DNA of 30,563 nucleotides, from IMG/VR virus record IMGVR_UViG_3300042465_002853, positions 1 through 30,563 of that record; one strand, 5' to 3'. The stretch is from a virus. Each line of letters begins with the position of its first letter. Position 1 is the stretch's first letter. The notes under the pieces were generated by a model, which was not told the DNA's origin, ran no database searches, and saw only the letters and a program-made list of their open reading frames with translations. Positions 16,827 through 28,362 of this stretch are shown here, in pieces. The translations under genes and the position numbers were made by a program.

Positions 16827-16850
16827 TTAGTGGGTTTCGGTTGTCCTTAC

Positions 16851-16880
16851 ACTATAGGGACACTTTGGAAGTCCCCCCTT
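16851..16880 (-). repeat. Intergenic hairpin element, copy 1
   Basis: Read on the minus strand, the element is GGGGGGAC, four variable bases (here TTCC), AAAGTGTCCC, then TATAGT. GGGAC pairs with GTCCC to form a hairpin with a 9-nt loop. Nine copies occur in this window, all between genes and all in the direction of transcription. Here the stop of the HNH gene (TGA) lies 2 nt before the G-run, and the next ATG is 24 nt after TATAGT. Confidence 0.9.
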
Positions 16881-17306
16881 TCAGTTACCTACTCTATCAC
16901 TGATGTCACTTAAGACCTGCAATACGACCTCACAACTATCCTTACCGTTCTCCTCTAAATGTTGCATAAGGTCTTGCAGTTGTGGTAGAACTTTGGTAAC
17001 ACTTTCTGGCACCCTTATCATCACTCCTGAGCCCAGATCTTTATACTTTAGAGGTCTCCCTCCAGCAATAGTTTTGGGACGAAACTTCAGGTCTTTTTTA
17101 CTCTTTTCGATGTGGCACTTGTTACATAAGAGTTGACACTTTGATAACTCTTCCTCCAAGACTTCCTTAGGTTTATGATACCCAGAAGAAATATTAAATG
17201 ACTTTGTGGAAGGGTCAATATGGTCGAACTCTAATGTTTCTGTGCAACCACATTCTACACACTTTCCACCTAGTTTTTCGATGAGTATTTCTCTAAAATA
17301 GTTCAT
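16881..17306 (-). CDS. HNH endonuclease with a C-terminal extension
   Basis: This 141-residue protein begins with a zinc-ribbon HNH nuclease: C16-x2-C19, the catalytic pair in EFDHIDPSTKSFN (D28-H29), and LLCNKCHIEKSKKD (C61, C64, H65). The nuclease domain ends near residue 75. A second part carries GSGVMIRVPESVTKVLPQL and a helical tail, which resembles the RVP-type DNA-binding segments of cyanobacterial proteins. It is most likely a free-standing homing endonuclease. A 17-bp perfect inverted repeat sits 5 nt before the ATG with a TATAAT box inside its loop, suggesting leader-based control. The 3' end abuts hairpin element copy 1. Confidence 0.85.
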   Translation of the reverse strand: MNYFREILIEKLGGKCVECGCTETLEFDHIDPSTKSFNISSGYHKPKEVLEEELSKCQLLCNKCHIEKSKKDLKFRPKTIAGGRPLKYKDLGSGVMIRVPESVTKVLPQLQDLMQHLEENGKDSCEVVLQVLSDISDRVGN

Positions 17307-17311
17307 AGGTA

Positions 17312-17369
17312 TTTTGATAGCACATTACCTCATTATATAGGTGTTTTAAGATGTAATGTGCTATCAAAA
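17312..17369 (-). repeat. 17-bp perfect inverted repeat before the HNH gene, with an internal -10 box
   Basis: TTTTGATAGCACATTAC at 17312-17328 is perfectly complementary to 17353-17369, with a 24-nt loop. On the coding strand the loop reads CACCTATATAATGAG, containing TATAAT. The downstream arm ends 5 nt before the HNH ATG. Read-through RNA would fold into a long hairpin at the start site. RNA started from the loop would lack the first arm. There is no T-tract after it, so it is not a typical terminator. Confidence 0.85.
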
Positions 17370-17403
17370 CTAAACTGCCTTATTTGGTATAAAATGACAC
17401 AGA

Positions 17404-17577
17404 TTACCAACGATCAGGAGTACTTAGGTCCTCTACATAAGCATCACAGTGTTCAGCAGGTTCTAGGTTCAATACCTTATCCCACTGAATCTGGTGAGGA
17501 TTCATGTCACTGAAAACCTCAAGATCCAAAGTTACACGATAACGAACCTTCTGTGCCTGATGATACGCAACTGACAT
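17404..17577 (-). CDS. Small protein of unknown function, cyanophage type
   Basis: This gene encodes 57 residues, starting MSVAYHQAQKVRYRVTLDLE and ending VEDLSTPDRW. It has a beta-strand-rich centre (VRYRVTLDLEV) and an acidic end. It looks like a small protein that I associate with cyanophage accessory regions; its function is unknown. A good Shine-Dalgarno sequence (CAGGAG) stands 7 nt before the ATG and a full sigma70 promoter (17605-17633) precedes it, so this is a well-expressed early gene. Confidence 0.8.
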   Translation of the reverse strand: MSVAYHQAQKVRYRVTLDLEVFSDMNPHQIQWDKVLNLEPAEHCDAYVEDLSTPDRW

Positions 17578-17604
17578 AAGTGTGCTCCTGAGGTGTATGT
17601 GAAT

Positions 17605-17633
17605 ACTATAAGATGTCTGAGGGTCTGTGTCAA
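17605..17633 (-). promoter_or_regulatory. Strong sigma70-type promoter
   Basis: The minus strand has TTGACA, a 17-nt spacer and TATAGT, ending 27 nt before the ATG of the 57-aa gene. This is a textbook host-type promoter and probably early. It shows that TATAGT, the same hexamer as in the nine-copy hairpin element, can serve as a -10 box here. Confidence 0.8.
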
Positions 17634-17707
17634 CTGGTGTGGGTGTATTTATTGGAAATCCTTATGGTTTTGGGGGAGGATGTGTGGGATTTCTGATGTT
17701 CCCGTGG

Positions 17708-17736
17708 TTGACAACATGAGGGTCTTATGCTATGCT
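17708..17736 (+). promoter_or_regulatory. Possible plus-strand promoter
   Basis: The plus strand reads TTGACA, a 17-nt spacer and TATGCT, pointing into the repeat-rich gene-free region where no plus-strand gene exists. If active it would give a non-coding or antisense RNA. The -35 box and spacing are perfect, but the -10 box is only a partial match. Confidence 0.3.
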
Positions 17737-17958
17737 CGCTTAGATCACAAGACCTCGAAGGGTTTAAACAAGACCTCAGCACATTTATAAGGTATTCAAA
17801 GGATTAAAAGACCTTATTCTCAACAATAAGACCTTATTGATTCTCAATTAGATACACTTATTGAGAATGATTTAAAACACTAATATACATTTAAAAACAC
17901 ATTTATAATACATTTTTAACGTTTTTTAGGGTTATTTCATGTTTTTAGACAATAAAAA

Positions 17959-17982
17959 AGAGAGGGTAACCACTCCCTCTCT
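17959..17982 (-). terminator. Strong Rho-independent terminator
   Basis: The minus strand has AGAGAGGG, an 8-nt loop and CCCTCTCT followed by TTTTTATTG. It ends the five-gene run that begins at 19108 and separates it from the repeat-rich region. Confidence 0.85.
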
Positions 17983-18071
17983 CTATCAATCAACCACACT
18001 AACCCTTGAGAATTATCTACACTTTACAAGGTCACTTTTCATGTATCGAGTGGCTAACCTCTTCCACTGTA

Positions 18072-18197
18072 TTACTGATTAGTGGATGCGAATGACTCGA
18101 TTGAGTGTACTGCTCGGTTACCTAGATTTGCAAGTCCGTTGAATCCTACTGTTGCGAGGATGATACCAGTAACAACTCCAATCAGGAACTTAGTCAT
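18072..18197 (-). CDS. Tiny membrane or exported protein
   Basis: This gene encodes 41 residues, starting MTKFLIGVVTGIILATVGFN. The first 20 residues are a hydrophobic helix with a Gly-rich face, and the rest is a short polar tail (NRAVHSIESFASTNQ). It is probably an inner-membrane or periplasm-facing miniprotein; similar ones are frequent in cyanophages. The ATG overlaps the end of the upstream gene by 8 nt. It is the last gene before the terminator at 17959-17982. Confidence 0.7.
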   Translation of the reverse strand: MTKFLIGVVTGIILATVGFNGLANLGNRAVHSIESFASTNQ

Positions 18198-18420
18198 TAG
18201 ATTCTAGTGAACGAGTACAATACTGAAACCGAGTCCATTCTTCATCTGTAAAGTTATCAGATGCATATGGAATACCTACCACATATGCACAGAACTTGTT
18301 GACTGTTTCATTATTGGTTGGTGTTGCATTTGCGTTGGAGATGATAGCAACAGTGAGAATAATGAACTCAATTGCGAAACCTAGATGTAACCACTTTCGA
18401 TTGTTCTTAGTGACTTTCAT
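18190..18420 (-). CDS. Small exported or membrane-anchored protein
   Basis: This gene encodes 76 residues. A positively charged start (MKVTKNNRKWLH) is followed by a hydrophobic segment (about 12-28) and an ANA site near residue 32, as in a signal peptide or N-terminal anchor. The remaining 45 residues contain two Cys (FCAY and YCTR) that could form a disulfide outside the cytoplasm. The start overlaps the stop of the upstream membrane gene (ATGA). The function is unknown. Three consecutive membrane/export genes here suggest an envelope-directed cluster. Confidence 0.75.
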   Translation of the reverse strand: MKVTKNNRKWLHLGFAIEFIILTVAIISNANATPTNNETVNKFCAYVVGIPYASDNFTDEEWTRFQYCTRSLESND

Positions 18421-18602
18421 TTGGGTGAATAAAGACAGGAACTAATGCTACCAGGAGTTGCAATTATTTGCCCACCTTTTGCTATACACTGTGCTTCTAT
18501 TTGGGGATTGCGGAAGTGTAGAATTGTGAAAGAAATTGCAATGAGGATAATACCTACAACTGATGCAATCACTGTTGCTTCGATGTCAGTTTGTTTGATC
18601 AT
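18417..18602 (-). CDS. Small single-pass membrane protein
   Basis: This gene encodes 61 residues. After MIKQTDIEATVIAS comes a strong hydrophobic helix (about 11-31, VVGIILIAISFTIL). A short domain with two Cys (AQCIAKGG and SSCLYSPK) follows, again suggesting an oxidised extracytoplasmic tail. The start overlaps the upstream stop (ATGA) and the stop overlaps the next start (ATGA), so it belongs to a tightly coupled operon. Confidence 0.75.
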   Translation of the reverse strand: MIKQTDIEATVIASVVGIILIAISFTILHFRNPQIEAQCIAKGGQIIATPGSISSCLYSPK

Positions 18603-18781
18603 TTTGCGTTGTCGATTAGATCTTGTTCAATTTGATGAAGTGTTTGAACTGTCCAATTCTCAGGATTACCATAAGGTGCATACAGTTGACTATACCTAAG
18701 ACCATAAAGATCAGGATTTAGATCTTGCAACTTTTCTAGAGTTTCTGCAATCTTAACGCTGATTGTGTGTTGGTAAGTCAT
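18599..18781 (-). CDS. Small soluble protein of unknown function
   Basis: This gene encodes 60 residues, starting MTYQHTISVKIAETLEKLQD, with a Tyr-rich centre and a C-terminal amphipathic helix (TVQTLHQIEQDLIDN). No recognised motif or membrane segment is present. Its stop overlaps the start of the membrane gene (ATGA). It follows the 106-aa gene by 6 nt and is probably on the same transcript starting at element copy 2. Confidence 0.7.
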   Translation of the reverse strand: MTYQHTISVKIAETLEKLQDLNPDLYGLRYSQLYAPYGNPENWTVQTLHQIEQDLIDNAK

Positions 18782-18787
18782 AAGAGT

Positions 18788-19108
18788 TCAGTTCAGACGC
18801 ATACCAGAGAAGAAGGGAATTGGGGAACCTTGGAAGTTAAGGAACCACTGTCCTTTCTTTTGGAAGATGTATTCTTTGTCTACACCATGAGCAGCAAGAA
18901 TAGCATTCAGACGGGACTTAGTTGTAGGAGTCTGCCAACCTCCATCGAATAGTTGAACATAAGTGGGACCAATCTCGGCAATTAGATTGTTGTGCAGATA
19001 CACACGAGAAATATCATGACCACTGTAATATGCGACTTCAGTGTTATCTTGCTTCCAATCAGTAGAGTTACTGATTGCTTCATTCATCAGGGTTTCGATC
19101 TTACGCAT
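18788..19108 (-). CDS. Conserved-looking phage protein of unknown function
   Basis: This gene encodes 106 residues, starting MRKIETLMNEAISNSTDWKQ. It has a beta-strand block VYLHNNLIAEIG, the segment DGGWQTPTTKSRLNAILAA, and ends KKGQWFLNFQGSPIPFFSGM. This pattern of strands, a GW-x-T-x-TTKSRLNA helix and a WF strand occurs in many phage genomes, but I know no function for it. It is the first gene after hairpin element copy 2 with a 30-nt leader lacking a Shine-Dalgarno sequence. Confidence 0.8.
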   Translation of the reverse strand: MRKIETLMNEAISNSTDWKQDNTEVAYYSGHDISRVYLHNNLIAEIGPTYVQLFDGGWQTPTTKSRLNAILAAHGVDKEYIFQKKGQWFLNFQGSPIPFFSGMRLN

Positions 19109-19138
19109 GGTTGAAAGTTGAGTGGGTTTGGTGGTTAC

Positions 19139-19169
19139 ACTATAGGGACACTTTCAACGTCCCCCCTTT
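19139..19169 (-). repeat. Intergenic hairpin element, copy 2
   Basis: Same core as copy 1 with GTTG as the variable bases. The 3' flank TATAGTGTAACCACC is shared with copy 4. The 5' flank AACCAACACAAA is nearly the same as in copy 7. It separates the 67-aa gene from the 106-aa gene. Confidence 0.9.
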
Positions 19170-19176
19170 GTGTTGG

Positions 19177-19380
19177 TTAAACAGTTTGGTAGTATTCTCC
19201 GATGAATTTGATCATACCAATTAACTTCTCATGAATCTCTTGTAGATCCTCATCATATTCAACTTCGGCAATTTCGTTGAGATTGATTGTTCCGTTGGTA
19301 TGAATGGGAATGTAGAATAGTGTGCCCTCGGTGTCGATTGAGTATGCACAACCGTGACCTTCTGGAGTGTAGAGAATCAT
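19177..19380 (-). CDS. Small protein of unknown function
   Basis: This gene encodes 67 residues, starting MILYTPEGHGCAYSIDTEGT. It has a beta-rich first half and an acidic helical second half (EVEYDEDLQEIHEKLIGMIK). The start overlaps the stop of the 47-aa gene (ATGA). It is the last gene before element copy 2. No family can be named. Confidence 0.75.
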   Translation of the reverse strand: MILYTPEGHGCAYSIDTEGTLFYIPIHTNGTINLNEIAEVEYDEDLQEIHEKLIGMIKFIGEYYQTV

Positions 19381-19520
19381 TTTTCAGTGGGGATTGTTGG
19401 ACCTTGGACAGAACAGAACTCGGACAAATAATAGTCTAGAGTGACACCTTCAATCGCAGCATATTGACTATATTCTTCATGTTGTTCAGGTGTGAGAATA
19501 AAGAACTCAGTTTCAATCAT
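19377..19520 (-). CDS. Tiny protein of unknown function
   Basis: This gene encodes 47 residues, starting MIETEFFILTPEQHEEYSQY and ending VQGPTIPTEK. Both ends are coupled: its ATG overlaps the upstream stop (TAATG) and its stop overlaps the next ATG (ATGA). The clean double overlap and good codon content support a real gene. It is acidic, with one Cys and no motif. Confidence 0.75.
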   Translation of the reverse strand: MIETEFFILTPEQHEEYSQYAAIEGVTLDYYLSEFCSVQGPTIPTEK

Positions 19521-19717
19521 TAAGCAGCAATTACATCATAGGTCAGAGAGTTTACAGTATAACCCATGTTGTTGTAGATGACATAACCGAAATCATCAAC
19601 ATTAGGTATATCCCAAAGACATGATTTTGCTTCAGTGATGATAGCATTCATTTCGTCTTGAGTGAGATCTTCATCATCAAAATCAAACTCAATATCTGTT
19701 ACTTTGTAGTAATTCAT
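19520..19717 (-). CDS. Small acidic protein of unknown function
   Basis: This gene encodes 65 residues from the ATG at 19717 (MNYYKVTDIEFDFDDEDLTQ); a TTG three codons upstream is less likely. It is strongly acidic near the N-terminus, and the C-terminal half (DFGYVIYNNMGYTVNSLTYD) looks like beta strands. The stop overlaps the next gene (TAATG). Strongly acidic phage miniproteins are sometimes DNA mimics, but nothing here proves that. Confidence 0.7.
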   Translation of the reverse strand: MNYYKVTDIEFDFDDEDLTQDEMNAIITEAKSCLWDIPNVDDFGYVIYNNMGYTVNSLTYDVIAA

Positions 19718-19726
19718 AATTGTCAA

Positions 19727-19936
19727 TCAGTTACCGAAGAAAGCATCGAACTCGTCTGCAATCTGATCAATCAGTTCATCAGTTGCATCGAGATCAAAGA
19801 GACAGCAAACAAAATCTACACAATCATTCAGATCAGTGAGAGGTGCAGTATTGCACATAAACTCACACAGAGCAGGTGCGATGTCGGTTTGAAAGTTAAG
19901 GTCAGTGTTGGTCATCTTGTCTTGAGTGGTGTTCAT
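19727..19936 (-). CDS. Small acidic protein of unknown function
   Basis: This gene encodes 69 residues. The second half is very acidic and Cys-containing (DCVDFVCCLFDLDATDELID, then ADEFDAFFGN), with an amphipathic helical pattern. The ATG follows TATAGT of hairpin element copy 3 with no gap, leaving no room for a normal leader if TATAGT acts as a -10 box. An internal ATG at codon 8 is a possible alternative start. The function is unknown. Confidence 0.7.
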   Translation of the reverse strand: MNTTQDKMTNTDLNFQTDIAPALCEFMCNTAPLTDLNDCVDFVCCLFDLDATDELIDQIADEFDAFFGN

Positions 19937-19966
19937 ACTATAGGGACACTTTGCACGTCCCCCTTT
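19937..19966 (-). repeat. Intergenic hairpin element, copy 3
   Basis: The core carries GTGC as its variable bases and five rather than six G in the first run. The 5' flank TGATTGAAAA is shared with copies 4 and 8. The next ATG directly follows TATAGT. Confidence 0.9.
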
Positions 19967-19970
19967 TCAA

Positions 19971-20189
19971 TCACAAACCGTTGATAAAGTCTGCGAGTGC
20001 TTCATTGTACTCTGCTTGAGTGTTAAAAACACGACCATGAATGTTCAGAGGAAATTGTTTCTTAACGCCTGCATTTGCAACGACTTGGCAATCTGCTTCA
20101 TCATATCCCATCTCGATGAGGTTTGCAACGTAAGGGTTTTTGTGTGTCATTTCAGTAGTTGTAGAATAAGGATTTGGGAGGGAGATCAT
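19971..20189 (-). CDS. Small protein of unknown function
   Basis: This gene encodes up to 72 residues. The ATG at 20189 directly abuts the upstream stop (TGAATG), while a second ATG at codon 14 (MTHKNPYVANLIEMGYDEAD) may be the true start. YVANLIEMGYDEADCQVVAN resembles a UBA/CUE-like helical segment (hydrophobic-MGY-D/E-x), followed by VFNTQAEYNEALADFINGL. The function is unknown. It ends 7 nt before the G-run of element copy 3. Confidence 0.65.
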   Translation of the reverse strand: MISLPNPYSTTTEMTHKNPYVANLIEMGYDEADCQVVANAGVKKQFPLNIHGRVFNTQAEYNEALADFINGL

Positions 20190-20456
20190 TCAGCAGGCAC
20201 CCCACATAGGATTTGCGAGTTGTGGCAGAGTGTGAAAATCAGTGACCTGATAACCCATGTTGATTCGATCTTCACACTCACGAGTAAAATCTTTCTTGCT
20301 GATTACTTTCTTGCTCATCGTATCAGTGCCCTTGAAAGAAACAATCTTGAGCATATAATCAGGAGAAACATCTGCATCAAGTGATACTTTCACGGGGTAG
20401 TAATCAACAACCATGGAAGGTTGATCGTCGATTTGAGAGATTGCGGAGAGTTGCAT
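20190..20456 (-). CDS. Small protein of unknown function
   Basis: This gene encodes 88 residues, starting MQLSAISQIDDQPSMVVDYY. The first half is beta-rich (YPVKVSLDADVSPDYMLKIV), followed by a charged helix (SKKVISKKDFTRECEDRINM) and an unusual Cys-terminated end (QLANPMWGAC). It is the first gene after element copy 4, with a 19-nt leader lacking a Shine-Dalgarno sequence. No family is recognised. Confidence 0.75.
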   Translation of the reverse strand: MQLSAISQIDDQPSMVVDYYPVKVSLDADVSPDYMLKIVSFKGTDTMSKKVISKKDFTRECEDRINMGYQVTDFHTLPQLANPMWGAC

Positions 20457-20475
20457 TTCAGAGTTTGGTGGTTAC

Positions 20476-20506
20476 ACTATAGGGACACTTTGCACGTCCC
20501 CCCTTT
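20476..20506 (-). repeat. Intergenic hairpin element, copy 4
   Basis: The core carries GTGC as its variable bases. The 5' flank TAAGTGATTGAAA is identical to copy 8 and includes the stop codon of the upstream gene. The 3' flank TATAGTGTAACCACC is shared with copy 2. Confidence 0.9.
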
Positions 20507-20509
20507 CAA

Positions 20510-21112
20510 TCACTTAACCTGTGCTGATGCTTCCTCCCAGATCTTACGATAGATTGCATTAGAGTCGTGTTCAATTTCAACATCACAAACTGTTGTTGCA
20601 CCATCATAAATCATCGTCACATCTTCAGGTGCAACAGAGAAACTTAAACGTGCAGTGTTTGGTGTTACTTTCTTGCCATAAAACACCGCACTATCTACAA
20701 CAGCAATTCGAGCATAGTGAGGATCAATCAACACATAACAATCTGACTTTGATTGAAAAGAACTGGTGCCCTTTGCTTTCTTCTGAATATCCCACTGTTT
20801 GGTGTAAAAGAGTTTCTTTCCCGTCTTCTGTGGTTTCATACCACTGCACTGGGTTTTTGCATCGGGGAATATGTTACCATCAAACACATAATCAGGATCA
20901 TTTGCTCGACCCTTACTGTTTGCTCTCAGATTGATGTATTTGCTGATTTCTTCGAGAAATCCATACTCAATCCCTTCACCACGAGCAAAACAATCAATAC
21001 CAAAAGATGATGGATACTGAAGTGAAACAACCTTCGCAACTTTCATAAAGTCACGATACACTTCCTGTGGGATTTGTTGAAGTGCTGCAATAAACTGTTC
21101 GGTCTTAGTCAT
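20510..21112 (-). CDS. Protein of unknown function, 200 residues
   Basis: The protein starts MTKTEQFIAALQQIPQEVYR, a helical region, followed by a mixed alpha/beta body with DCYVLIDPHYARIAVVDSAV and DVTMIYDGATTVCDVEIEHD near the end. It has no recognised catalytic motif, transmembrane segment or signal. A good Shine-Dalgarno sequence (AGGAG) precedes the ATG at 21112, unlike most neighbours. It ends just before hairpin element copy 4. I considered a DNA-binding or nuclease fold but see no supporting residues. Confidence 0.8.
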   Translation of the reverse strand: MTKTEQFIAALQQIPQEVYRDFMKVAKVVSLQYPSSFGIDCFARGEGIEYGFLEEISKYINLRANSKGRANDPDYVFDGNIFPDAKTQCSGMKPQKTGKKLFYTKQWDIQKKAKGTSSFQSKSDCYVLIDPHYARIAVVDSAVFYGKKVTPNTARLSFSVAPEDVTMIYDGATTVCDVEIEHDSNAIYRKIWEEASAQVK

Positions 21113-21144
21113 TAGAATCTCCTCGTAAGGATAAGTGAATTGAA

Positions 21145-21288
21145 TTACTTGAAAACTGCGTTGACTCCTATCACCTTTGCTGTAGGATTGCGGGCGAGTG
21201 CTGTTTCCTTTGCATCCTGATAGTTTCGTGCCTCTACAGTCTCGGTGAAGACTTTGCCTGCAACATACAATTTAACTTCGCATTTCAT
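21145..21288 (-). CDS. Tiny protein of unknown function
   Basis: This gene encodes 47 residues from the ATG at 21288: MKCEVKLYVAGKVFTETVEA, then RNYQDAKETALARNPTAKVI. It is a beta-hairpin followed by a helix, a layout seen in many phage miniproteins (VKLYVAGK ... A..R.YQDAKETAL). The ATG overlaps the stop of the 31-aa gene (ATGA), which is why I chose it over a longer TTG-start frame. Confidence 0.75.
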   Translation of the reverse strand: MKCEVKLYVAGKVFTETVEARNYQDAKETALARNPTAKVIGVNAVFK

Positions 21289-21380
21289 GCTGCTAATGCT
21301 CCAGAAGGAATGGTAACGATTTCGGGCAGTTTGGTAACACAACCATCATAAGTTTCGACTTGAACTCGATAGTTTTTCAT
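21285..21380 (-). CDS. Tiny protein, 31 residues
   Basis: The peptide starts MKNYRVQVETYDGCVTKLPE and ends VTIPSGALAA. Both ends overlap neighbours by ATGA (with the 61-aa gene upstream and the 47-aa gene downstream), which strongly supports translation despite the small size. It is probably a small beta-rich peptide. No function is known. Confidence 0.6.
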   Translation of the reverse strand: MKNYRVQVETYDGCVTKLPEIVTIPSGALAA

Positions 21381-21562
21381 TTGAAATAGAATGAATGAAC
21401 GTCAGTTTCTTCGTTGTATTGAATAATGAAATCACCAATCTCTACATTATCACTTTCTTCCACAAGTTGAGCAAACTCAGTAACATTTGCAAATGGAAGT
21501 GAAGGAATAACGCAATCACCAAACTCATCAAAAGAGTTGATACAGTTGCCGATGAACTTCAT
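21377..21562 (-). CDS. Small acidic protein of unknown function
   Basis: This gene encodes 61 residues, MKFIGNCINSFDEFGDCVIP and an acidic end (ESDNVEIGDFIIQYNEETD). It follows the 81-aa gene by 2 nt and overlaps the 31-aa gene (ATGA). Two Cys lie in the first 17 residues. No recognised motif is present. Confidence 0.75.
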   Translation of the reverse strand: MKFIGNCINSFDEFGDCVIPSLPFANVTEFAQLVEESDNVEIGDFIIQYNEETDVHSFYFK

Positions 21563-21564
21563 AA

Positions 21565-21810
21565 TCAGTAGTGTGCCTCAGAGTAATCAAGTTGTGCAGA
21601 GTATTCTGCAATCAGATTGTAGCATTTGGTGCGAGTTTGATCATCAGCACCCTCCATAAAAGAGAGGCAATACTTCATCCGTTGCTCAGGATGTGCGTTG
21701 ATTCGATCAATCTCAGCACGTTGCTTTTCACGATAGGAGTTGTATGCGAACATCTCACGATCTTCGATGCTCATGGTGTGAAACTTGCGATTCATGGTAG
21801 TTGTGCTCAT
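21565..21810 (-). CDS. Small helical protein of unknown function
   Basis: This gene encodes 81 residues, starting MSTTTMNRKFHTMSIEDREM. It is mostly charged helices, with YNSYREKQRAEIDRINAHPE and a C-terminal LIAEYSAQLDYSEAHY. The ATG directly follows TATAGT of element copy 5. It leads a four-gene coupled run that ends with the 47-aa gene at 21145. The function is unknown. Confidence 0.75.
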   Translation of the reverse strand: MSTTTMNRKFHTMSIEDREMFAYNSYREKQRAEIDRINAHPEQRMKYCLSFMEGADDQTRTKCYNLIAEYSAQLDYSEAHY

Positions 21811-21840
21811 ACTATAGGGACACTTTCAACGTCCCCCCTT
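21811..21840 (-). repeat. Intergenic hairpin element, copy 5
   Basis: The core carries GTTG as its variable bases. The stop codon TAA of the GIY-YIG gene is fused directly to the G-run, and the next gene's ATG directly follows TATAGT, so the element fills the whole intergenic space. Confidence 0.9.
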
Positions 21841-22465
21841 ACTGATACCTAAACTTAAATCCTTTTGTATGTTCTCTTTTTCCTTTGCATATTTGACAAA
21901 TAGTTGATCTTGATAGATTATATTTTCTTGCAAATTCTGCGATATTAAAAATAACTTCTTCTTTACCATCTGGATGAGTAACAATATAACTTTTTGCTCT
22001 ATTTGTATTTCCAAATGGTCTATGTGGATTAGTATTTGCTTCTACTCGTTTTCTAATTAAATGTTCTGATTGTTTTCTTCCACGAAGTTGGGATGCTATC
22101 TTTTCGGTGTGTTCTAAAGTTCTTGGTGGTTTTGGTTTTCTTAATTTCTCTTTTGCCTCTTCACTCATGTTCCAAGTATTGCCCTTTTGTGATGGGGGTT
22201 TATTTCCACCCTCAGTCATATTATACTCTGCACCATATTTTTTTATGAACTCATCCTCCTTTTGTAAAGCATCGTCACCTTGATATATTTGCTCAACAAT
22301 AAAATTATCTGCTCCATACTTTCTTATGGCGTTATATATTTTTTGATTATTTCTTTTATATTTTGAGTTGTCAATATGTGTCTTAAATCGTTGCTCTATG
22401 GACAAAGATGTGAAACCAATATAACACTTATCGTTGATTGTATTTGTTATCTTATAGAGGAACAT
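21839..22465 (-). CDS. GIY-YIG homing endonuclease (Seg-like)
   Basis: This 208-residue protein has the GIY-YIG core at 4-20 (YKITNTINDKCYIGFTS), the catalytic Arg at R25 in IEQRFKTH, and the acidic catalytic residue E70 in LQKEDEFIKKYG. Short NUMOD3-like segments follow at about 99-142 (MSEEAKEKLRKPK; LRGRKQSEHLIRKR). A C-terminal helix-turn-helix of the NUMOD1/IENR1 type follows (FNIAEFARKYNLSRSTICQI, then CKG). It is probably an intact free-standing homing endonuclease inserted between the nucleotidyltransferase gene and element copy 5. A CATAAATA late promoter lies 20 nt before the ATG. Confidence 0.93.
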   Translation of the reverse strand: MFLYKITNTINDKCYIGFTSLSIEQRFKTHIDNSKYKRNNQKIYNAIRKYGADNFIVEQIYQGDDALQKEDEFIKKYGAEYNMTEGGNKPPSQKGNTWNMSEEAKEKLRKPKPPRTLEHTEKIASQLRGRKQSEHLIRKRVEANTNPHRPFGNTNRAKSYIVTHPDGKEEVIFNIAEFARKYNLSRSTICQICKGKREHTKGFKFRYQ

Positions 22466-22485
22466 CTGTATAAATCAATTTCAAC

Positions 22486-22493
22486 TATTTATG
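22486..22493 (-). promoter_or_regulatory. Late promoter before the GIY-YIG gene
   Basis: The minus strand reads CATAAATA, a match to NATAAATA, 20 nt before the ATG at 22465. Part of it can pair with ATTTAT farther down the leader (a 6-bp stem). Late timing is usual for T4 homing endonucleases. Confidence 0.55.
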
Positions 22494-22508
22494 CAAACTT
22501 CACTCTAC

Positions 22509-23405
22509 TTAAACCCACTCTTTAGGAAGTACAAAGTTTGCATGAGAGAATGTCTCACGATCAACTACCTTGAACATGCCAAACTCGTTGGTGATAACAT
22601 AACCCTCGTGGAAGGATTGCACACCGCAAAGTTCACATTCAATCTCATCTTCATCATGAATGAATAGGAACAAATCATCCTTGATAGACTTCACCAAACG
22701 CCAAAGTCTGATGAGGTTCTTATCACAATCACATTTTTCTGCAATTTCATCCTCATCAACGACCCTTTGCTCGCGGATGCAGGCATTTATCTCTTTTTTG
22801 ATTTGTGATGCCTTGCGATCAGACACAAACTCACATAGAGTGCTCATTTGCTTGGCAAACTTACACACATCTTCCAAATCCTCACGATAAGGACTCAGAG
22901 AGACCTCAGGTTGCACAAACAAGCAACAATCAGTGCTTTTCAGTTTGTACTGCAAAGGAGCAGCAGATACCTCACGCAGATCATCACCACCACTGTAGAT
23001 TGTGTGAGGTGCGATGATGAGATCTTGAGTGATTACCTGAGGGAACTTGTAAGTGATCGTGTTGGGACGATAAGTATCAGAACCCCCAGCACCAATAAAG
23101 TCACCTTGATAGATACGATTTGTGTGAGGAAGATGATCAAAGCACAGATGCAGAACATCCGCAACTTTACCCTCATGATTCGCATCAATTTCTTCATGAG
23201 AATGATTGATCTTGATCTTTACTTTGTTAAAGACGGATTTAGTGCCAACAAAGAACTTTCCGTTTGCAGGATTTCGACCCCAGACAATAGCAGGGGCACC
23301 GTCGATCTTGACGGAGATTGTAGAATCAGCAGAGAACCAATCAAGAACCGAAAGGTCGCCGTTGAGAATAGAATCCTCAGGATGTTCCAGGTGAGTGTTC
23401 TTCAT
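22509..23405 (-). CDS. KxDG nucleotidyltransferase (DNA/RNA ligase superfamily-like)
   Basis: This 298-residue protein starts MKNTHLEHPEDSILNGDLSV. Motif I, VKIDGAPAIVWG, puts the likely AMP/GMP-accepting lysine at K33. A motif III-like RIYQGDFIGAGG is at 98-108, motif IV is EGYVI (267-271), and a motif V-like FKVV follows (K279). The order and spacing fit the covalent nucleotidyltransferase fold of ligases and capping enzymes, without a separate OB domain. The substrate is unknown; RNA repair is one option. Two CxxC-type pairs (KCDCDK; ECELCG) are noted. The start is at 23405, directly after TATAGT of element copy 6. The in-frame extension to 23564 lies inside the upstream gene and the element. 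Confidence 0.7.
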   Translation of the reverse strand: MKNTHLEHPEDSILNGDLSVLDWFSADSTISVKIDGAPAIVWGRNPANGKFFVGTKSVFNKVKIKINHSHEEIDANHEGKVADVLHLCFDHLPHTNRIYQGDFIGAGGSDTYRPNTITYKFPQVITQDLIIAPHTIYSGGDDLREVSAAPLQYKLKSTDCCLFVQPEVSLSPYREDLEDVCKFAKQMSTLCEFVSDRKASQIKKEINACIREQRVVDEDEIAEKCDCDKNLIRLWRLVKSIKDDLFLFIHDEDEIECELCGVQSFHEGYVITNEFGMFKVVDRETFSHANFVLPKEWV

Positions 23406-23435
23406 ACTATAGGGACACTTTGGAAGTCCCCCCTT
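23406..23435 (-). repeat. Intergenic hairpin element, copy 6
   Basis: The core carries TTCC as its variable bases, the same as copy 1. The upstream 78-aa frame runs through the hairpin and stops at the TAG inside TATAGT, and the next ATG directly follows the hexamer. Confidence 0.9.
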
Positions 23436-23643
23436 GTTGTTTCTTGTGCTGTTGAATAAAATTGCGAGCAGAACTCTCAGTGCGGCAGACTTTGAGTTGC
23501 TCCCCATTATGAATGACCATAAGTTGGTTTCCAAAAGGTATCGCCGCATACTCACCTTTGCCAAGAATAAATCCCTCTTTCATTATACTTTCTAAAAAAT
23601 CGTGATTTTTGTTGCGGTGGATGACCCATAGGGTCTGTGACAT
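23407..23643 (-). CDS. Small protein whose 3' end lies in the hairpin element
   Basis: This gene encodes 78 residues, starting MSQTLWVIHRNKNHDFLESI, with FGNQLMVIHNGEQLKVCRTE in the middle. The last eight residues (GGTSKVSL) and the stop TAG are encoded by hairpin element copy 6. The sequence before the element ends in a basic Gln-rich helix (NFIQQHKKQQ). Either the element was inserted into the end of this gene, or the gene evolved to use the element's stop. A terminator lies 15 nt upstream of its ATG, so its promoter is unclear. The function is unknown. Confidence 0.7.
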   Translation of the reverse strand: MSQTLWVIHRNKNHDFLESIMKEGFILGKGEYAAIPFGNQLMVIHNGEQLKVCRTESSARNFIQQHKKQQGGTSKVSL

Positions 23644-23658
23644 AGAATTGCAGAAAAA

Positions 23659-23676
23659 TCAGGGTTTGACCCCTGA
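23659..23676 (-). terminator. Rho-independent terminator after the helicase
   Basis: The minus strand has TCAGGG, loop GTCAAA and CCCTGA, then TTTTTC. It lies 24 nt after the helicase stop codon. Confidence 0.7.
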
Positions 23677-23700
23677 CCAGCACTGGGTTCTCAGTGAGAC

Positions 23701-24945
23701 TCACCTGCGAACCACCGACACAGCAGGTTCCCCCTTCTCAAAGATCGTATCAACAACCGACTGAACTGCCTTGGCAGTGGTGATGCCAACCTTGCTGTAC
23801 ACTGGGATACACACAAGACCAAACGATTTGCTATACTGAGCAAGGTTGCCAGGTTCGATACGTCCCTCTCGCATACCTTGAGCATCATCGTGATGCAGAC
23901 GGATGCAACGTCCGATGGTCTGACTGATACCGATGAAATCCATGTTACGCAGGAAGAGAACTGCCTCAAGACCAGACACGTTGATACCTTCTGCAAGGAT
24001 GGAATGGTGCAGAACCACAAACTTCTTGGAGTTGTCTTTGCCCCATGCACTTAGGGTATCGAAGAATACCTCACGGTTCACTTTGCGACCGTCAATCACT
24101 GCTCCCGTTTTTGCCGTGATGTACATCCAAGAATAACCGCGACACTCTAACTGGAAGCAGAAATCAGTTTCGGTCACCAGAGAGACAATCTGCTTGGTTG
24201 CCTTAGCACAGATCAGAATCTTGCCAACCTTGTTGTCATCAATCGTTTCCAGTAGGTTGGCAGAATCTCGGTCAAAATTGGTCTGCTTGCCCTGTACCAT
24301 CTCCAGTTGCTTGACGATCACTTTAGGGGGCACAATATAACCACCTTCAACCAACTCAGGAGCAGGAACTTTGCAAATGACCTGACCATAAACTGCAGAA
24401 TCATTCATGCCAGGTTTGCCAACTGCCAACGAGTGCTTTGGAGTTGCGGTAAAGAAGTAGCAACGACGTGCAGTAGCAGAGAAGTGCTCAGTTGCAGGGA
24501 AAAAGTGTCGTTGAACTGAATTATGTGCCTCATCAAAGTAGATGGTATCCACATCAATCTCTGCTGCCTGCAGACGATTGAGAGAGTTGTAGGTGGTCAC
24601 AATCAGTCGATGATTGTCTGCGTTAGCAGTAACCCAGTTCTGAATCTCTTGAGGACGAGTAGAACTAAAGTGGTGAGTTTCACCAGAGTGAACGTGCATC
24701 ACTTCTGCGTTGGTGATAAACTCCAGAAACTCAGAAGAGAGTTGCTCAGCAAGCAGAATGCGCGGAGCAACAACAACGATGGTCTGAGGAGTTTCAGACT
24801 GCAACTGACGCAGAGCATCATAGATCATCTTGAGAGTCTTACCACCACCAGTGGGCACAATCACCTGACCTTTATCATGCTGTTGCATAGCAGCAACACC
24901 ACGTTCTTGATGCGGTCGGAGAGTAATTTGCATGGGGTTCATCAT
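23701..24945 (-). CDS. SF2 DEAD/DEAH-box helicase
   Basis: This 414-residue protein has a complete two-domain superfamily 2 helicase: LRPHQERGVAAM (Q-like), Walker A VPTGGGKT (30-37), APRILLAEQL (Ia), IYFDEAHNS with the DEAH box (138-141), FFTATP (motif III, 165-169), LICAKA (IV), LAEGINVSGLEAVLFL (V) and SQTIGRCIRLH (VI, 341-351). It belongs with the UvsW/RecQ/type-III-restriction-like translocases, but it is short and lacks added domains. A role in recombination, replication restart or RNA remodelling is inferred. The start (MMNPMQITLRPHQ) is 2 nt after TATAGT of element copy 7, and a terminator follows the stop. Confidence 0.9.
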   Translation of the reverse strand: MMNPMQITLRPHQERGVAAMQQHDKGQVIVPTGGGKTLKMIYDALRQLQSETPQTIVVVAPRILLAEQLSSEFLEFITNAEVMHVHSGETHHFSSTRPQEIQNWVTANADNHRLIVTTYNSLNRLQAAEIDVDTIYFDEAHNSVQRHFFPATEHFSATARRCYFFTATPKHSLAVGKPGMNDSAVYGQVICKVPAPELVEGGYIVPPKVIVKQLEMVQGKQTNFDRDSANLLETIDDNKVGKILICAKATKQIVSLVTETDFCFQLECRGYSWMYITAKTGAVIDGRKVNREVFFDTLSAWGKDNSKKFVVLHHSILAEGINVSGLEAVLFLRNMDFIGISQTIGRCIRLHHDDAQGMREGRIEPGNLAQYSKSFGLVCIPVYSKVGITTAKAVQSVVDTIFEKGEPAVSVVRR

Positions 24946-24947
24946 AT

Positions 24948-24977
24948 ACTATAGGGACACTTTGCATGTCCCCCCTT
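24948..24977 (-). repeat. Intergenic hairpin element, copy 7
   Basis: The core carries ATGC as its variable bases, allowing one extra A-T pair in the stem. The 5' flank AACAAACACAAA is close to copy 2. The helicase ATG lies 2 nt after TATAGT. Confidence 0.9.
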
Positions 24978-24985
24978 TGTGTTTG

Positions 24986-26017
24986 TTAAATCTTTACGAG
25001 TTCAGTAAACTCTTCCTTTTGATTGTCTTGGGGTAGGAATCGGTGCTCACAATCAGGGTGATGCCAAGGAAGCATAGATTTGTGTCGAACAGAATCCAAT
25101 CCAAAGAGAGAGCAAAGTTTCTGTTCAAGTTGAGCAAACTTATCGGAGAAAACTTTTGACCTAGTTGTATCCAGACTTTCATTTGCCATCAGTTTGACCG
25201 AGAACAAGAAATGGATCGGTTTGTTAGCGATAACTGCTTGAGATGCAAGACCAATAATACTTCCCCACCGTGAACTAAAGTTAGACATGTTCACATACAT
25301 GGTGTATTCGCCTTCATTTTTCCAGAAATCTTCTACCCATTCATCTTTAGTTTCATTAAAGAAAACAGGAAGTCGATCATCATTCCAAGATTGGAATCGT
25401 TCAGCACCATCAGACTTTCCAGAAACTACTCGTTCGATGATAATTTTGTTAAAGATCTCTTTGATAGCACTCTCAGAGATCGCACCCTTACCAAGGAACC
25501 TAGTCTCTGCTTTGATTTGATCATCGGTTACAACAGCACCGATGGTGATAAGTTCACGAACTGCTGCATTTACATCTGCTGCAGAAACTGGATTGTAAAC
25601 ATCCTTCTTCTTAATGTTGGATGCAGTGGCAAATCGAACTTTTGCAGCATCATTCTCAAAACGAACTCCTTGACACATCCACCCAGGAATTGAAAGGTTT
25701 TGAGAAACATTAAATCGGTGATCTCCGTTAATTGTTTCGTCAGTATCTACATCATAATAAATGATAGAAGAATCTAGTCGAATACCATTTTCTTGAATAT
25801 CCTCTTTCAGTTCTTCAACCTTACCAAGATCAACTCCATTTGCCCGACCAGGATTTTTCCAGTGCGAAAGATCTTTCCACAATTTCATGTGGATGTCACC
25901 GATCAATTTTACACCAGCAACTCCATAAGTGCTAGGTTCATAAGTCCAGTTTTCTGGATTACATGCAATAGCATCCCAGTATTGGCAAACAAAAGGATTC
26001 AGTGCAACAGTTGTCAT
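24986..26017 (-). CDS. ParB/sulfiredoxin-like domain protein
   Basis: This 343-residue protein has a ParB/Srx-like core at about 66-101: KVEELKEDIQENGIRLDSSI, then a strand, then ETINGDHRFN (cf. the GxHR motif of ParB nucleases/CTPases). A helical region follows with DVNAAVRELITIGAVVTDDQ and a C-terminal domain of unknown fold (NFSSRWGSIIGLASQAVIAN, CSLFGLDSVRHKSMLPWHHP DCEHRF). A His/Cys cluster near the end may bind metal. It could be a DNA-binding nuclease or regulator. It lies directly upstream of the helicase unit. The function is not known. Confidence 0.55.
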   Translation of the reverse strand: MTTVALNPFVCQYWDAIACNPENWTYEPSTYGVAGVKLIGDIHMKLWKDLSHWKNPGRANGVDLGKVEELKEDIQENGIRLDSSIIYYDVDTDETINGDHRFNVSQNLSIPGWMCQGVRFENDAAKVRFATASNIKKKDVYNPVSAADVNAAVRELITIGAVVTDDQIKAETRFLGKGAISESAIKEIFNKIIIERVVSGKSDGAERFQSWNDDRLPVFFNETKDEWVEDFWKNEGEYTMYVNMSNFSSRWGSIIGLASQAVIANKPIHFLFSVKLMANESLDTTRSKVFSDKFAQLEQKLCSLFGLDSVRHKSMLPWHHPDCEHRFLPQDNQKEEFTELVKI

Positions 26018-26085
26018 AATAAAATGAATGTTTGATTAAAGTTTAGCAGTTTTGGGATTGAATGTCCGTAAGTATTGGACAGTTC

Positions 26086-26280
26086 TCAGACTGTCTCTTT
26101 CAGTCGTTGCAGATCTGTGATGATAAACTTCATCACAGATTCAGAATAACCTACAGCATAAGGATAAGACTTCACAGTTTCATATTCGTTACCATCAACA
26201 TTATAGCATACGTTGACAGCAGACTGCAAACCTTCAATTAAGGTCTCAATAGTAGTAATAGGCACAGTCACAGTTTTCAT
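26086..26280 (-). CDS. Small protein of unknown function
   Basis: This gene encodes 64 residues, starting MKTVTVPITTIETLIEGLQS and ending FIITDLQRLKETV: two amphipathic helices around a Tyr-rich centre. It is the first gene after element copy 8, with a leader of about 36 nt. Two overlapping small hairpins lie around its stop codon (26063-26095). No family is recognised. Confidence 0.75.
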   Translation of the reverse strand: MKTVTVPITTIETLIEGLQSAVNVCYNVDGNEYETVKSYPYAVGYSESVMKFIITDLQRLKETV

Positions 26281-26316
26281 GGTGTTGTAAACGATTCTGG
26301 AGGGGTCTGGTGTTAC

Positions 26317-26347
26317 ATTATAGGGACAGTTTCAACGTCCCCCCTTT
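26317..26347 (-). repeat. Intergenic hairpin element, copy 8 (most diverged)
   Basis: The core carries GTTG, with AAACT in place of AAAGT and TATAAT instead of TATAGT, moving the hexamer to the sigma70 -10 consensus. The hairpin stem is intact. The 5' flank TAAGTGATTGAAA equals that of copy 4. Confidence 0.88.
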
Positions 26348-26350
26348 CAA

Positions 26351-27088
26351 TCACTTAGAAGTATATTTGTGCTGGAGTTCCTTTTCTGACTTCTTGCCAG
26401 TGCTGGTGAGAACAAGATCTCTCAGTTCTCTCTCACCTTTCTTGTAAAGTGCCTTTCTTTCTTGAGTGGAAAGACCAGATGCCTTGCGTGGAGTATAATC
26501 AGCAGCAGGTGCCTTTTCTGGTGCTTTCTTTCTCAGAAGTTCTGATGCTTTCTTCTCTGCTTCTTTTGCTTTAGGTTTTGCTGCTGATACAGTTCCACCC
26601 GATTTTGTTGCTGCAATTCTTGCTTGTGCTGCCTTTCTTCTTTCTTCTTTTGCTGCTGCTAATTGCTTCTCTCTTGCAGAACCTCTTTCCTGTTCGGGTT
26701 GCTGAACTCTGGTGGATGCTTGTCTTTGAGTGCCAATATCCTTTCGAGGTTTATAAGACACTGGTTCAGTCTTTCCACCACCTACAGCTTTGGTTCTGCG
26801 AATTTCTGGAGTTGATTTCTTACGTTCACGACCGATTCTGCCACCTTCACCAGTCTTTCTAATTTGAGAACGTCCTTGAATTTCTGGGTCATACACTTCA
26901 TTTGCAAGTTCCTGCTTTATTTCATCTTTCATACGCTTTCTATCTTCTTCAGCATCTCTTTTTGCTTGAAGATCTGCAGTATATTGTTTTGCTCTACTCT
27001 TAAAACTATCGGCAGCATCTTTTTGCTTTTGTGCAATTTGTTGCCTGCGTTGCTCAATACTTTCTTGGAACTGCTGAAACGTTTTCAT
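26351..27088 (-). CDS. Highly charged protein with T4-internal-protein-like N-terminus
   Basis: This 245-residue protein begins MKTFQQFQESIEQRRQQIAQ. The first residues resemble the capsid-targeting sequence of T4 internal proteins (MKTYQEFIAEA), which the gp21 protease removes after Glu. The rest is Lys/Arg/Gln/Ala-rich and largely coiled coil or disordered (AAAKEERRKAAQARIAATKS). It is strongly basic, as in DNA-packed injected proteins. The ATG follows an ACTAAATA late-type motif by 24 nt and a GTAGAG ribosome site. A role as a head-internal, co-injected protein is inferred. An alternative is a scaffold or tail chaperone. Confidence 0.7.
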   Translation of the reverse strand: MKTFQQFQESIEQRRQQIAQKQKDAADSFKSRAKQYTADLQAKRDAEEDRKRMKDEIKQELANEVYDPEIQGRSQIRKTGEGGRIGRERKKSTPEIRRTKAVGGGKTEPVSYKPRKDIGTQRQASTRVQQPEQERGSAREKQLAAAKEERRKAAQARIAATKSGGTVSAAKPKAKEAEKKASELLRKKAPEKAPAADYTPRKASGLSTQERKALYKKGERELRDLVLTSTGKKSEKELQHKYTSK

Positions 27089-27112
27089 CTCTACAATATA
27101 GACCCTTTGAAG

Positions 27113-27120
27113 TATTTAGT
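27113..27120 (-). promoter_or_regulatory. Late-type promoter before the putative internal protein
   Basis: The minus strand reads ACTAAATA 24 nt before the ATG at 27088 and touches the stop of the preceding gene. The same octamer precedes the second putative internal protein (28599-28606). Confidence 0.45.
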
Positions 27121-27632
27121 CAAGGGGTAGTGTCCAGTTTCTCAACTGCCACAATATCCTTATGATAAGATTTTTTTCTCCTACCCGTTAGAATATCACG
27201 GACACATGTGGGGGTATATCCATTTTTTATACACCAAGGTTCTAACCCAATAATAACAATTTCCTCACCATTAACAAAAGTTATTTTATACTTTCCAGGT
27301 TTTTGTCCACAACCCGAACCCCTCTTTGCCTTAAAGTTTTTTAAACTTTTAGATAATCTACCCTTTTTCCAACCAGGAGGATTATTGAAAAATAGTTTTT
27401 CTGTTATTCCATCATTATACCATTTTTTACCTTTAGCAGCTTTAGAACCAATAGATTTCCAATCTCTTGGCAATCTTCCCCTCAAATATCCTTCTGGTTG
27501 ATTTTTGGACTGAACTTCTTCCAATCCATTATTCCACCAAGGATAATTCTTACCGCATCTCGCAATAAAATCTTCCTCTGGGATAGTAGTATCCCATTTC
27601 ATCTCTTTAAGAGATTTAAATACATCTTCCAT
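27120..27632 (-). CDS. Mobile-endonuclease-like protein with repeated W-x-N-x-G modules, no catalytic domain seen
   Basis: This 170-residue protein has two tandem modules: YPWWNNGLEEVQ ... PEGYLRGRL (about 30-53) and KWYNDGITEKLF ... PPGWKKGRL (70-92). Such WYNNG...PxGWxxGR modules occur in phage GIY-YIG/HNH homing endonucleases. The C-terminus (VNGEEIVIIGLEPWCIKNGY, then TPTCVRDILTG) is an IENR1/NUMOD1-like DNA-binding helix-turn-helix. No nuclease core is visible, so it may be a truncated endonuclease or an independent DNA-binding protein. A TATAAATA late promoter and a long inverted repeat precede the ATG. Confidence 0.7.
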   Translation of the reverse strand: MEDVFKSLKEMKWDTTIPEEDFIARCGKNYPWWNNGLEEVQSKNQPEGYLRGRLPRDWKSIGSKAAKGKKWYNDGITEKLFFNNPPGWKKGRLSKSLKNFKAKRGSGCGQKPGKYKITFVNGEEIVIIGLEPWCIKNGYTPTCVRDILTGRRKKSYHKDIVAVEKLDTTP

Positions 27633-27654
27633 CTGCTTTAATCGTGGTTATACT

Positions 27655-27662
27655 TATTTATA
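27655..27662 (-). promoter_or_regulatory. Late promoter, perfect T4 consensus
   Basis: The minus strand reads TATAAATA, 22 nt before the ATG at 27632, in the loop of the inverted repeat and just after the terminator at 27671-27686. Confidence 0.7.
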
Positions 27663-27670
27663 AAAGAAAA

Positions 27671-27686
27671 GGGGCATTTCTGCCCC
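27671..27686 (-). terminator. Rho-independent terminator
   Basis: The minus strand has GGGGCA, loop GAAA and TGCCCC, then TTTTCTTTTA. The loop is a stable GNRA-type tetraloop. It would end the transcript of the 69-aa gene. Confidence 0.85.
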
Positions 27687-27735
27687 CAATCTCTTTGCTT
27701 AAACAACCACGATTAAGCATTAGTATTTAGTTGTA

Positions 27736-27945
27736 TCAATCTTCCTTTAGTTTATCTTGTGCAGATTTGCTGATTTTACAAACCATGTCATTATCATAAA
27801 AATACTTAACACGTTCACGACGAGCAGCAATCAAGAGATCGTATTGTTCCTTTTGATCTTTAGTGTAGGTAAAATCTTGCTTCCTCCAAGCATCACGGAG
27901 TTCAAAGATGTGTGGAAGAACATTAACAGTGTCAGTCATTTTCAT
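27736..27945 (-). CDS. Small charged protein of unknown function
   Basis: This gene encodes 69 residues from the ATG at 27945 (MKMTDTVNVLPHIFELRDAW); codon 3 is another possible start and an upstream TTG is less likely. It is rich in charged helices (ERVKYFYDNDMVCKISKSAQ). The stop is followed by ACTAAATACT, a direct repeat of the sequence at the other end of the 170-aa gene. No family is recognised. Confidence 0.7.
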   Translation of the reverse strand: MKMTDTVNVLPHIFELRDAWRKQDFTYTKDQKEQYDLLIAARRERVKYFYDNDMVCKISKSAQDKLKED

Positions 27946-27977
27946 TAAGAGATGCAAGAAATACAATCAACCAAAGT

Positions 27978-28169
27978 TCAAGTGCAATCAGCACTATCGA
28001 TTCCACTACTATCGGAGGGAGTGACATTTGGTTTTACATAACGAACATTATAAGGAGACTTGAAGAAACGACGGAAGGCAGTAACAATAATAACACCTGC
28101 CGAAATAACACCAACCAAACCAAGGAAGGTGACAGCATCACCAGTAAAAGTATAAGTATCAGGGTTCAT
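27978..28169 (-). CDS. Small single-pass membrane protein
   Basis: This gene encodes 63 residues. One hydrophobic helix (about 13-31, VTFLGLVGVISAGVIIVTAF) is followed by a basic stretch RRFFKSPYNVRYVKP and an acidic tail ending SADCT. By the positive-inside rule the tail is cytoplasmic. The function is unknown. It lies 2 nt after the stop of the 47-aa acidic gene, so the two are probably co-transcribed from element copy 9. Confidence 0.75.
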   Translation of the reverse strand: MNPDTYTFTGDAVTFLGLVGVISAGVIIVTAFRRFFKSPYNVRYVKPNVTPSDSSGIDSADCT

Positions 28170-28171
28170 AA

Positions 28172-28315
28172 TCAGAAATCGAATTCAGTGTTAAAGTTTT
28201 CAGTAAAAGAGAGATCATCAATCTCTACATCATTATCATCCCATCCTTTCATCTCAGGAATGTCAAAGATTTCACCAGGTGCATCTTGAATTTCAGACCA
28301 GAGATCGTCGAACAT
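28172..28315 (-). CDS. Tiny very acidic protein
   Basis: This gene encodes 47 residues, MFDDLWSEIQDAPGEIFDIP, then EMKGWDDNDVEIDDLSFTEN and a short end. About a third are Asp or Glu with almost no basic residues. It resembles a family that I recall from cyanophages. Such acidity could indicate a DNA-mimic inhibitor, but this is only a suggestion. The ATG follows element copy 9 by 17 nt. Confidence 0.75.
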   Translation of the reverse strand: MFDDLWSEIQDAPGEIFDIPEMKGWDDNDVEIDDLSFTENFNTEFDF

Positions 28316-28332
28316 AAGAGTGTTGTGCTTAC

Positions 28333-28362
28333 ACTATAGGGACACTTTGCACGTCCCCCCTT
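28333..28362 (-). repeat. Intergenic hairpin element, copy 9
   Basis: The core carries GTGC as its variable bases. The stop TAA of the upstream 72-aa gene is fused directly to the G-run, as in copy 5. This is the right-most copy in the window. Confidence 0.9.

Follow-up and report, generated by a model that had tools for sequence, protein, structure and literature searches.

A repeated intergenic element of T4-like cyanophages with a constant core and a genome-specific block: a probable phage promoter

Why would a viral genome place the same short sequence ahead of nine of its genes? This question is raised by the IMG/VR viral record IMGVR_UViG_3300042465_002853, a stretch of 30,563 bases that was analyzed as a whole and is referred to here as the window. 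Its gene content resembles that of the T4-like cyanophages, with gp25 and gp6-type baseplate genes at 10834-13145 followed by an accessory region, and its overall gene order matches that of the isolates S-SM2 and SynMITS9220M01. A first-pass annotation, made from the letters alone, described nine intergenic hairpin elements in the accessory region. From a comparison of these elements with their relatives, it is proposed that each copy is probably a promoter of the phage, whose recognition block is specific to the lineage and homogenized within each genome.

The nine copies in the window

The pattern GGGACNNNNAAAGTGTCCC, with up to three mismatches, has nine matches in the window. All lie on the minus (coding) strand, and 0.30 matches are expected by chance (100 dinucleotide shuffles of the window, highest shuffle count 2). 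The element is about 35 bp long and its 12-base 5' block reads GGGGGGAC in the window version. The copies are the following:

16847..16881, minus strand: copy 1, the 5' block plus AAAGTGTCCCTATAGTGTAA; heads the 78-aa gene 16590-16826 (phrog_871)
19135..19169, minus strand: copy 2; heads the 106-aa gene 18788-19108 (phrog_554)
19933..19967, minus strand: copy 3, TAGTATG form with its own ATG in frame; heads the 69-aa gene 19727-19936
20472..20506, minus strand: copy 4; heads the 88-aa gene 20190-20456 (phrog_500)
21807..21841, minus strand: copy 5, TAGTATG form; heads the 81-aa gene 21565-21810
23402..23436, minus strand: copy 6, TAGTATG form; its own ATG is the start codon of the DUF6267 gene 22509-23405 (MKNTHLEHPED...)
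24944..24978, minus strand: copy 7, ATGC class; heads the UvsW/ResIII-type helicase gene 23701-24945
26313..26347, minus strand: copy 8, deviant (AAACTGTCCC, TATAAT); heads the 64-aa gene 26086-26280
28329..28363, minus strand: copy 9; heads the 47-aa gene 28172-28315

Eight copies are flanked by a stop codon on the same strand and by the following start codon; the exception, copy 6, shares sequence with the 3' end of an ORF of 78 aa (23407-23643). Eight begin at or just past the stop codon, 12-22 bases ahead of the AAAG that opens the core, and the 3' end of every copy lies at, or slightly before, the downstream start codon. The first-pass annotation had located all nine copies and their orientation correctly, and its four classes of variable bases (TTCC, GTTG, GTGC and ATGC) are right as well. 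The hexamer TATAGT, which it took as conserved, is found in eight of the nine copies; the copy at 26323-26341 has AAACTGTCCC followed by TATAAT instead. The genes downstream are also as it described them, namely a UvsW/ResIII-type helicase, a DUF6267 protein (Pfam PF19782, 4e-80; earlier labeled "nucleotidyltransferase") and seven small genes, mostly of function-unknown PHROGs, while the structural half of the window contains no copies. The DUF6267 protein (22509-23405) has the sequence VKIDGAPA, a KxDG motif that resembles motif I of nucleotidyltransferases and ligases.

A constant core and a variable block

The window pattern extended with TATA matches 57 IMG/VR stretches, many of them multi-copy. 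A weight-matrix scan then revealed copies that share the 3' half of the element and have a different 5' half. Scans of IMG/VR with the 3' half alone gave at least 754 distinct copies in at least 282 loci among the matches listed. Related copies are also carried by the isolates S-SM2 and SynMITS9220M01.

When offsets are numbered from the first A of AAAG, the constant core is AAAGTGTCC(C/T)NNTAGTRTRA, i.e. AAAG(T)GTCC(C/T)NNTAGTRTRA. The C at -5 is invariant, though the search did not demand a C there. When the region past offset 9 is left unconstrained, T12, A13, T15, R16 and T17 are conserved at 96-100%; the type III set, which was picked by its 5' half, displays the same pattern (91-100%). 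Offsets 10-11 are mostly TA or AG, and AGTA replaces TATA in about one-third of the copies. The 12 bases before the core (-15 to -4) form a block of which at least 12 versions occur on the same 3' arm, including GGGGGG(A/T)C, CTGGGGCC, GTTACTCACC, ATAGCTCACC, GTTAGTAACC, GTTAGGATCG, AACTTGGATCC and AACTGAAGCC, some of them interrelated. Further enrichment is found upstream, of A at -31/-30, of T at -28/-27 and again of A/T at -20 to -14. These positions are spaced by about 11 bp and lie partly within the upstream coding sequence.

The block follows the genome rather than the gene

The identity of the block is 0.89 within loci versus 0.47 between loci, with flanks close to background. Paralogous copies, which stand ahead of different genes in one genome, have a block identity of about 0.90, whereas orthologous copies, ahead of genes for 30-80% identical proteins in different genomes, have one of 0.42-0.50. 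The same genome-over-gene pattern is observed at a single kind of site, in 48 DUF6267-type genes with the element. When each column is considered separately, genome specificity is seen from about -21 to -1, with the exception of C-5, and at 9-11, and the element becomes gene-specific from offset 16 onward. In loci with at least four copies, 630 of 655 copies match the local block type. That one part of the element is rewritten in concert in all copies of a genome, and differently from genome to genome, seems to be novel.

Three loci (L013, L034 and L055) are of mixed type, with type II copies next to one or two type I or hybrid copies. They are possibly snapshots of ongoing conversion.

Gene association and gene order

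The multi-copy loci (two or more elements) hold their 845 elements on a single strand in 184 of 184 cases. An element typically follows a stop codon directly and precedes a start codon. For the window genes headed by an element, the element is also present at 26-71% of the homologues. Among 16 control genes of the window, 11 have it at 0-10% of their homologues, two are without homologues, and the other three depart from a plain negative, at 0.26, 0.36 and 0.80, with the value of 0.80 based on five homologues. As the homologue loci were fetched for carrying elements, these fractions are not natural frequencies, and it is the contrast between element and control genes that counts. The strand and homologue data support the idea of a repeated expression-type signal heading small gene units.

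Gene order is interrupted about twice as often at the elements as elsewhere. The upstream gene stays adjacent across an element gap in fractions of 0.107, 0.192 and 0.300 at downstream protein identities of 30-60, 60-80 and 80-95%, respectively; across other gaps the values are 0.25, 0.37 and 0.50 in the same bins, about twice as high. The effect size is approximate, given the simple longest-ORF gene models and contigs of overlapping origin. The deficit is also statistical, with no single exchange traced, and other causes may contribute to a weaker linkage of unit heads. The data support gene turnover at the elements. They do not support mobility of the element itself, which tends to remain with particular genes and has a block that varies with the genome. 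The interpretation in the first-pass annotation, which included a possible shuffling module, is partly supported.

The breaks in gene order, the homogenized copies and a nearby GIY-YIG endonuclease gene would also suit a repeat that is kept solely as a recombination or homing endonuclease target, without a role in expression. Such a site requires neither constant co-orientation nor a position just upstream of start codons, nor integration with the start codon itself, and this explanation is considered very unlikely.

The stem

The stem GGGAC/GTCCC had been described as conserved. Conservation holds within the window and fails in the relatives, where most of the at least 12 blocks cannot pair. 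Type I copies fold at about -10 to -11 kcal/mol and pair well over the full proposed stem, types II, IX and IV pair in part, and types III, IIIb, V, VI, VII and VIII combine an unchanged 3' arm with a 5' arm that does not fit it. In an ungapped alignment of 63 sequences, 68.2% of the stem cells are paired compared to 68.0% in shuffles, with no covariation beyond the shuffles, a test of low power as the 3' arm is nearly invariant. The folding z-scores of the element are only +0.2 to -1.7. The stem is argued against as a working part because the replaced 5' arm meets no response in the 3' arm, and the hairpin was rejected as a conserved unit. No terminator was predicted on the coding strand at any element and no T-run is present, so that a terminator role on this strand was rejected too. 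A search of Rfam gave no match of the element to a curated structured RNA family. From these sequence comparisons, the stem appears to be incidental to the G-rich blocks.

These results bear on the analogy with the promoter-early/stem-loop (PeSL) cassettes of T4-type phages (PMC4503421, citing Arbiol 2010 and Comeau 2014). In a PeSL-like reading, the GGGAC/GTCCC hairpin would work in RNA as part of a terminator-promoter cassette that moves between genes. The folding of type I and the gene-order breaks are in line with this. The unpaired 5' arms of types III, V, VI, VII and VIII, the absence of excess covariation, the missing terminator and the tendency of the element to stay with its genes are not, and a cassette of this kind is improbable.

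Promoter or RNA signal

The favored explanation is that the element acts at the level of DNA. A promoter of about 35 bp would drive the transcription of a short run of accessory genes, early or middle in timing, and its upstream 12-bp block together with offsets 9-11 would be specific to the phage genome. By analogy with the MotA box, the block could be the site for a lineage-specific, phage-controlled DNA-binding factor that acts with the host RNA polymerase; it is probably read by such a putative phage factor. The copies within a genome may be kept similar by their common reader, by gene conversion or by both, and a gene moving between phages would come under the recipient's version of the block. 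What the sequences show directly is the copy number, placement and orientation, the constant core, the genome-specific block, the link with particular genes, the surplus of gene-order breaks and the use of the element's ATG in frame; promoter activity, factor, timing and start point are what we infer.

The alternative that requires the most attention is an intercistronic signal in a polycistronic mRNA, i.e. a processing site or a site of translation initiation or repression that is bound by a phage RNA-binding protein. The strand-specific placement between stop and start codon fits this, as does the in-frame ATG of the element (see below), which is thus probably translated. Start codons are found at offset 16 or at about 31-60, hence there is no fixed ribosome site, and there is neither a conserved fold nor a restriction to the mRNA gap, since the A/T positions reach into the upstream coding sequence. 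DNA was favored over RNA because the distance to the start codon varies, no fold is conserved and the A/T positions are about 11 bp apart. The latter resemble an UP element, which fits DNA recognition and not an RNA signal. An RNA-level signal is unlikely, though it is the most credible of the alternatives. The loci hold only seven tRNAs, none downstream of an element, too few to separate a promoter from a translation signal, and upstream genes on the opposite strand are confounded as a promoter test by antisense ORFs.

Several observations speak against the promoter or complicate it. The placement of a -10 is not clean. TATAGT/TAGTRT would imply a start at about offset 22-25, and the modestly conserved C21-A22 after TATAGT suggests one near offset 22. 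Yet among 298 elements with an ATG at offset 16, this ATG shares the frame of the gene in 270; the type III set, which partly overlaps the 298, has 95 out of 109. In 71 cases, from several families and about half of them outside DUF6267, no other in-frame ATG lies within 25 codons. For these genes, at least, transcription must therefore begin at or before offset 16, and the transcripts are perhaps leaderless. The statistics weaken a reading of TATAGT as a simple -10 whose start lies downstream; two overlapping promoters (early and middle) within one element are possible. Furthermore, the element has no -35 consensus: TAGTRT fits TANNNT without a -35, and all nine copies are missing from the window's list of promoter-like sequences. 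Finally, one comparison of S-SM2 and SynMITS9220M01 with Bellamy and Syn9 yielded no clear candidate for the factor, as the roughly 100 candidates were mostly antisense ORFs and none was a clear DNA-binding protein.

A promoter for a single-subunit RNA polymerase of the T7/SP6 type can be set aside almost entirely. Its basis is a likeness of sequence: GTGTCCCTATAG resembles the SP6 promoter, and the reverse-strand CACTATAGGGA, on the plus strand of the nine elements, is identical to the T7 promoter core. No PF00940 polymerase was found in S-SM2 or SynMITS9220M01 (T7 as positive control, 1e-110), which refutes such a polymerase for these two complete relatives, the window itself being a fragment. 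The likeness of CACTATAGGGA was judged a coincidence because neither relative encodes a T7-type polymerase, and the replacement of TATA by AGTA also disagrees with it.

Other signals in the window

Other window genes are preceded by different promoter classes, which was counted in favor of the promoter reading. The T4-late-type motif ATAAATA occurs four times in the window, never inside an element. Three sites precede gp25, the GIY-YIG endonuclease gene 21839-22465 and gene 27120-27632, as late-type signals among early-type genes. Near-consensus sigma-70 promoters and convincing intrinsic terminators, the latter unlike the element in appearance, are also present:

13167-13173, minus strand: ATAAATA (T4-late-type) site, 21-29 bases upstream of a gene
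22486-22492, minus strand: ATAAATA site, within the same distance range
27655-27661, minus strand: ATAAATA site, within the same distance range
17633-17605, minus strand: near-consensus sigma-70 promoter, 11/12 matches, ahead of an element-free gene
29650-29622, minus strand: near-consensus sigma-70 promoter, 11/12 matches, ahead of an element-free gene
17984-17957, minus strand: intrinsic terminator
27687-27670, minus strand: intrinsic terminator
14128-14105, minus strand: intrinsic terminator

Distribution among viruses

The first-pass annotation knew of no description of this sequence in cyanophages. Many viral contigs contain it, as do a few isolates (S-SM2 and SynMITS9220M01). P-TIM68 and S-B05 have about 10 copies each of a related form (GTTAGTTACCTCTAAATTGA...; ATTACTCACCTCGAAATGTCCACTATAGTGTAACCAC). 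No exact match was found in 84,980 bacterial and archaeal genomes, and a host origin was rejected.

In the stretches read of P-SSM2, S-SRM01, S-SKS1 and P-SSM7 no copy occurs. The same holds for the stretches read of Bellamy, Syn9 and S-CAM9, which contain other intergenic repeats with host-like -10 sequences. Comparison at syntenic gaps, as had been proposed, showed that the element-free phages often contain other promoter-like sequences there, e.g. TATAAT ahead of the DUF6267 gene of P-SSM2.

Syn9 and Bellamy have their own intergenic repeat, a partial dyad TGTGMCA-N9/10-TGKCACA at gene ends, followed by TGTATTATTAA or TGTATTCTATAA, plus AGAGTCAAAGG, ahead of the start codon. As an RNA hairpin this box was rejected, its arms being mostly uncompensated. 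Other lineage-specific intergenic repeats are GTTTATATTGGCCATGTTGAGAGGAACACC in S-CAM9 and TAAGTAACACTTACTCATTCACTCACTAACTAACA in S-SKS1.

Comparison with known systems

The element functionally resembles both the PeSL cassettes and the MotA-box promoters, yet lacks defining features of each. Like PeSLs, it is a repeated intergenic regulatory unit among small variable genes with an apparent excess of gene turnover. Unlike them, it has no intrinsic terminator, no stem conserved in relatives and no clear sigma-70 -35/-10 pair, and it tends to stay with its genes while its block follows the genome. The analogy with PeSLs drawn in the first-pass annotation thus extends to the effect on genome layout and not to sequence and structure. 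S-PM2 was reported to be without a high density of PeSLs (PMC4503421).

As in T4 middle promoters, a phage-specific box would replace the -35 and be combined with a -10-like part (PMC2988021). The block differs between lineages, however, and the MotA box, (WWW)TGCTTtA at 12 +/- 1 bp from the -10, is absent from every element consensus. Marine T4-like cyanophages are described in PMC5780444, citing Doron 2016, as lacking motA and/or asiA. Among haloviruses, HF2 has intergenic repeats, nine of them with demonstrated promoter activity (PMC8707807); these are likewise short repeat families in a tailed virus, but an archaeal one, and of other sequence. The ATAAATA that forms the -10 of T4 late promoters is not present in the elements.

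A novel, non-host-like regulatory element of early genes in Syn9 was reportedly described by Doron et al. in ISME J in 2016, and it may overlap with the present motif. The gaps of Syn9 contain AAGTGTCCAC-like boxes and show neither the block nor the C at -5 nor TAGTRT. The Syn9 element possibly has the same biological role.

Significance

A wider generalization is offered tentatively, as an idea that may well prove wrong: T4-like cyanophages could possess private promoter alphabets, in which a constant core is combined with a genome-specific block that is rewritten jointly at roughly 5-12 promoters per genome. Each block would be matched by a putative phage transcription factor, and exchanged genes would be relabeled at the element. 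The idea is directly testable in the cultured phages with about 10 copies each. The combination of core and lineage block offers a means of marking gene units in metagenomic viral contigs, of predicting co-regulated genes and of searching for the factor. T4-like cyanophages infect abundant phototrophs of the ocean and their early genes are mostly uncharacterized. Should the block be a recognition site, it may restrict which expression signals function after gene exchange between phages, and private alphabets, if true, would mean that ocean viruses have a cis/trans code of transcription that diversifies rapidly.

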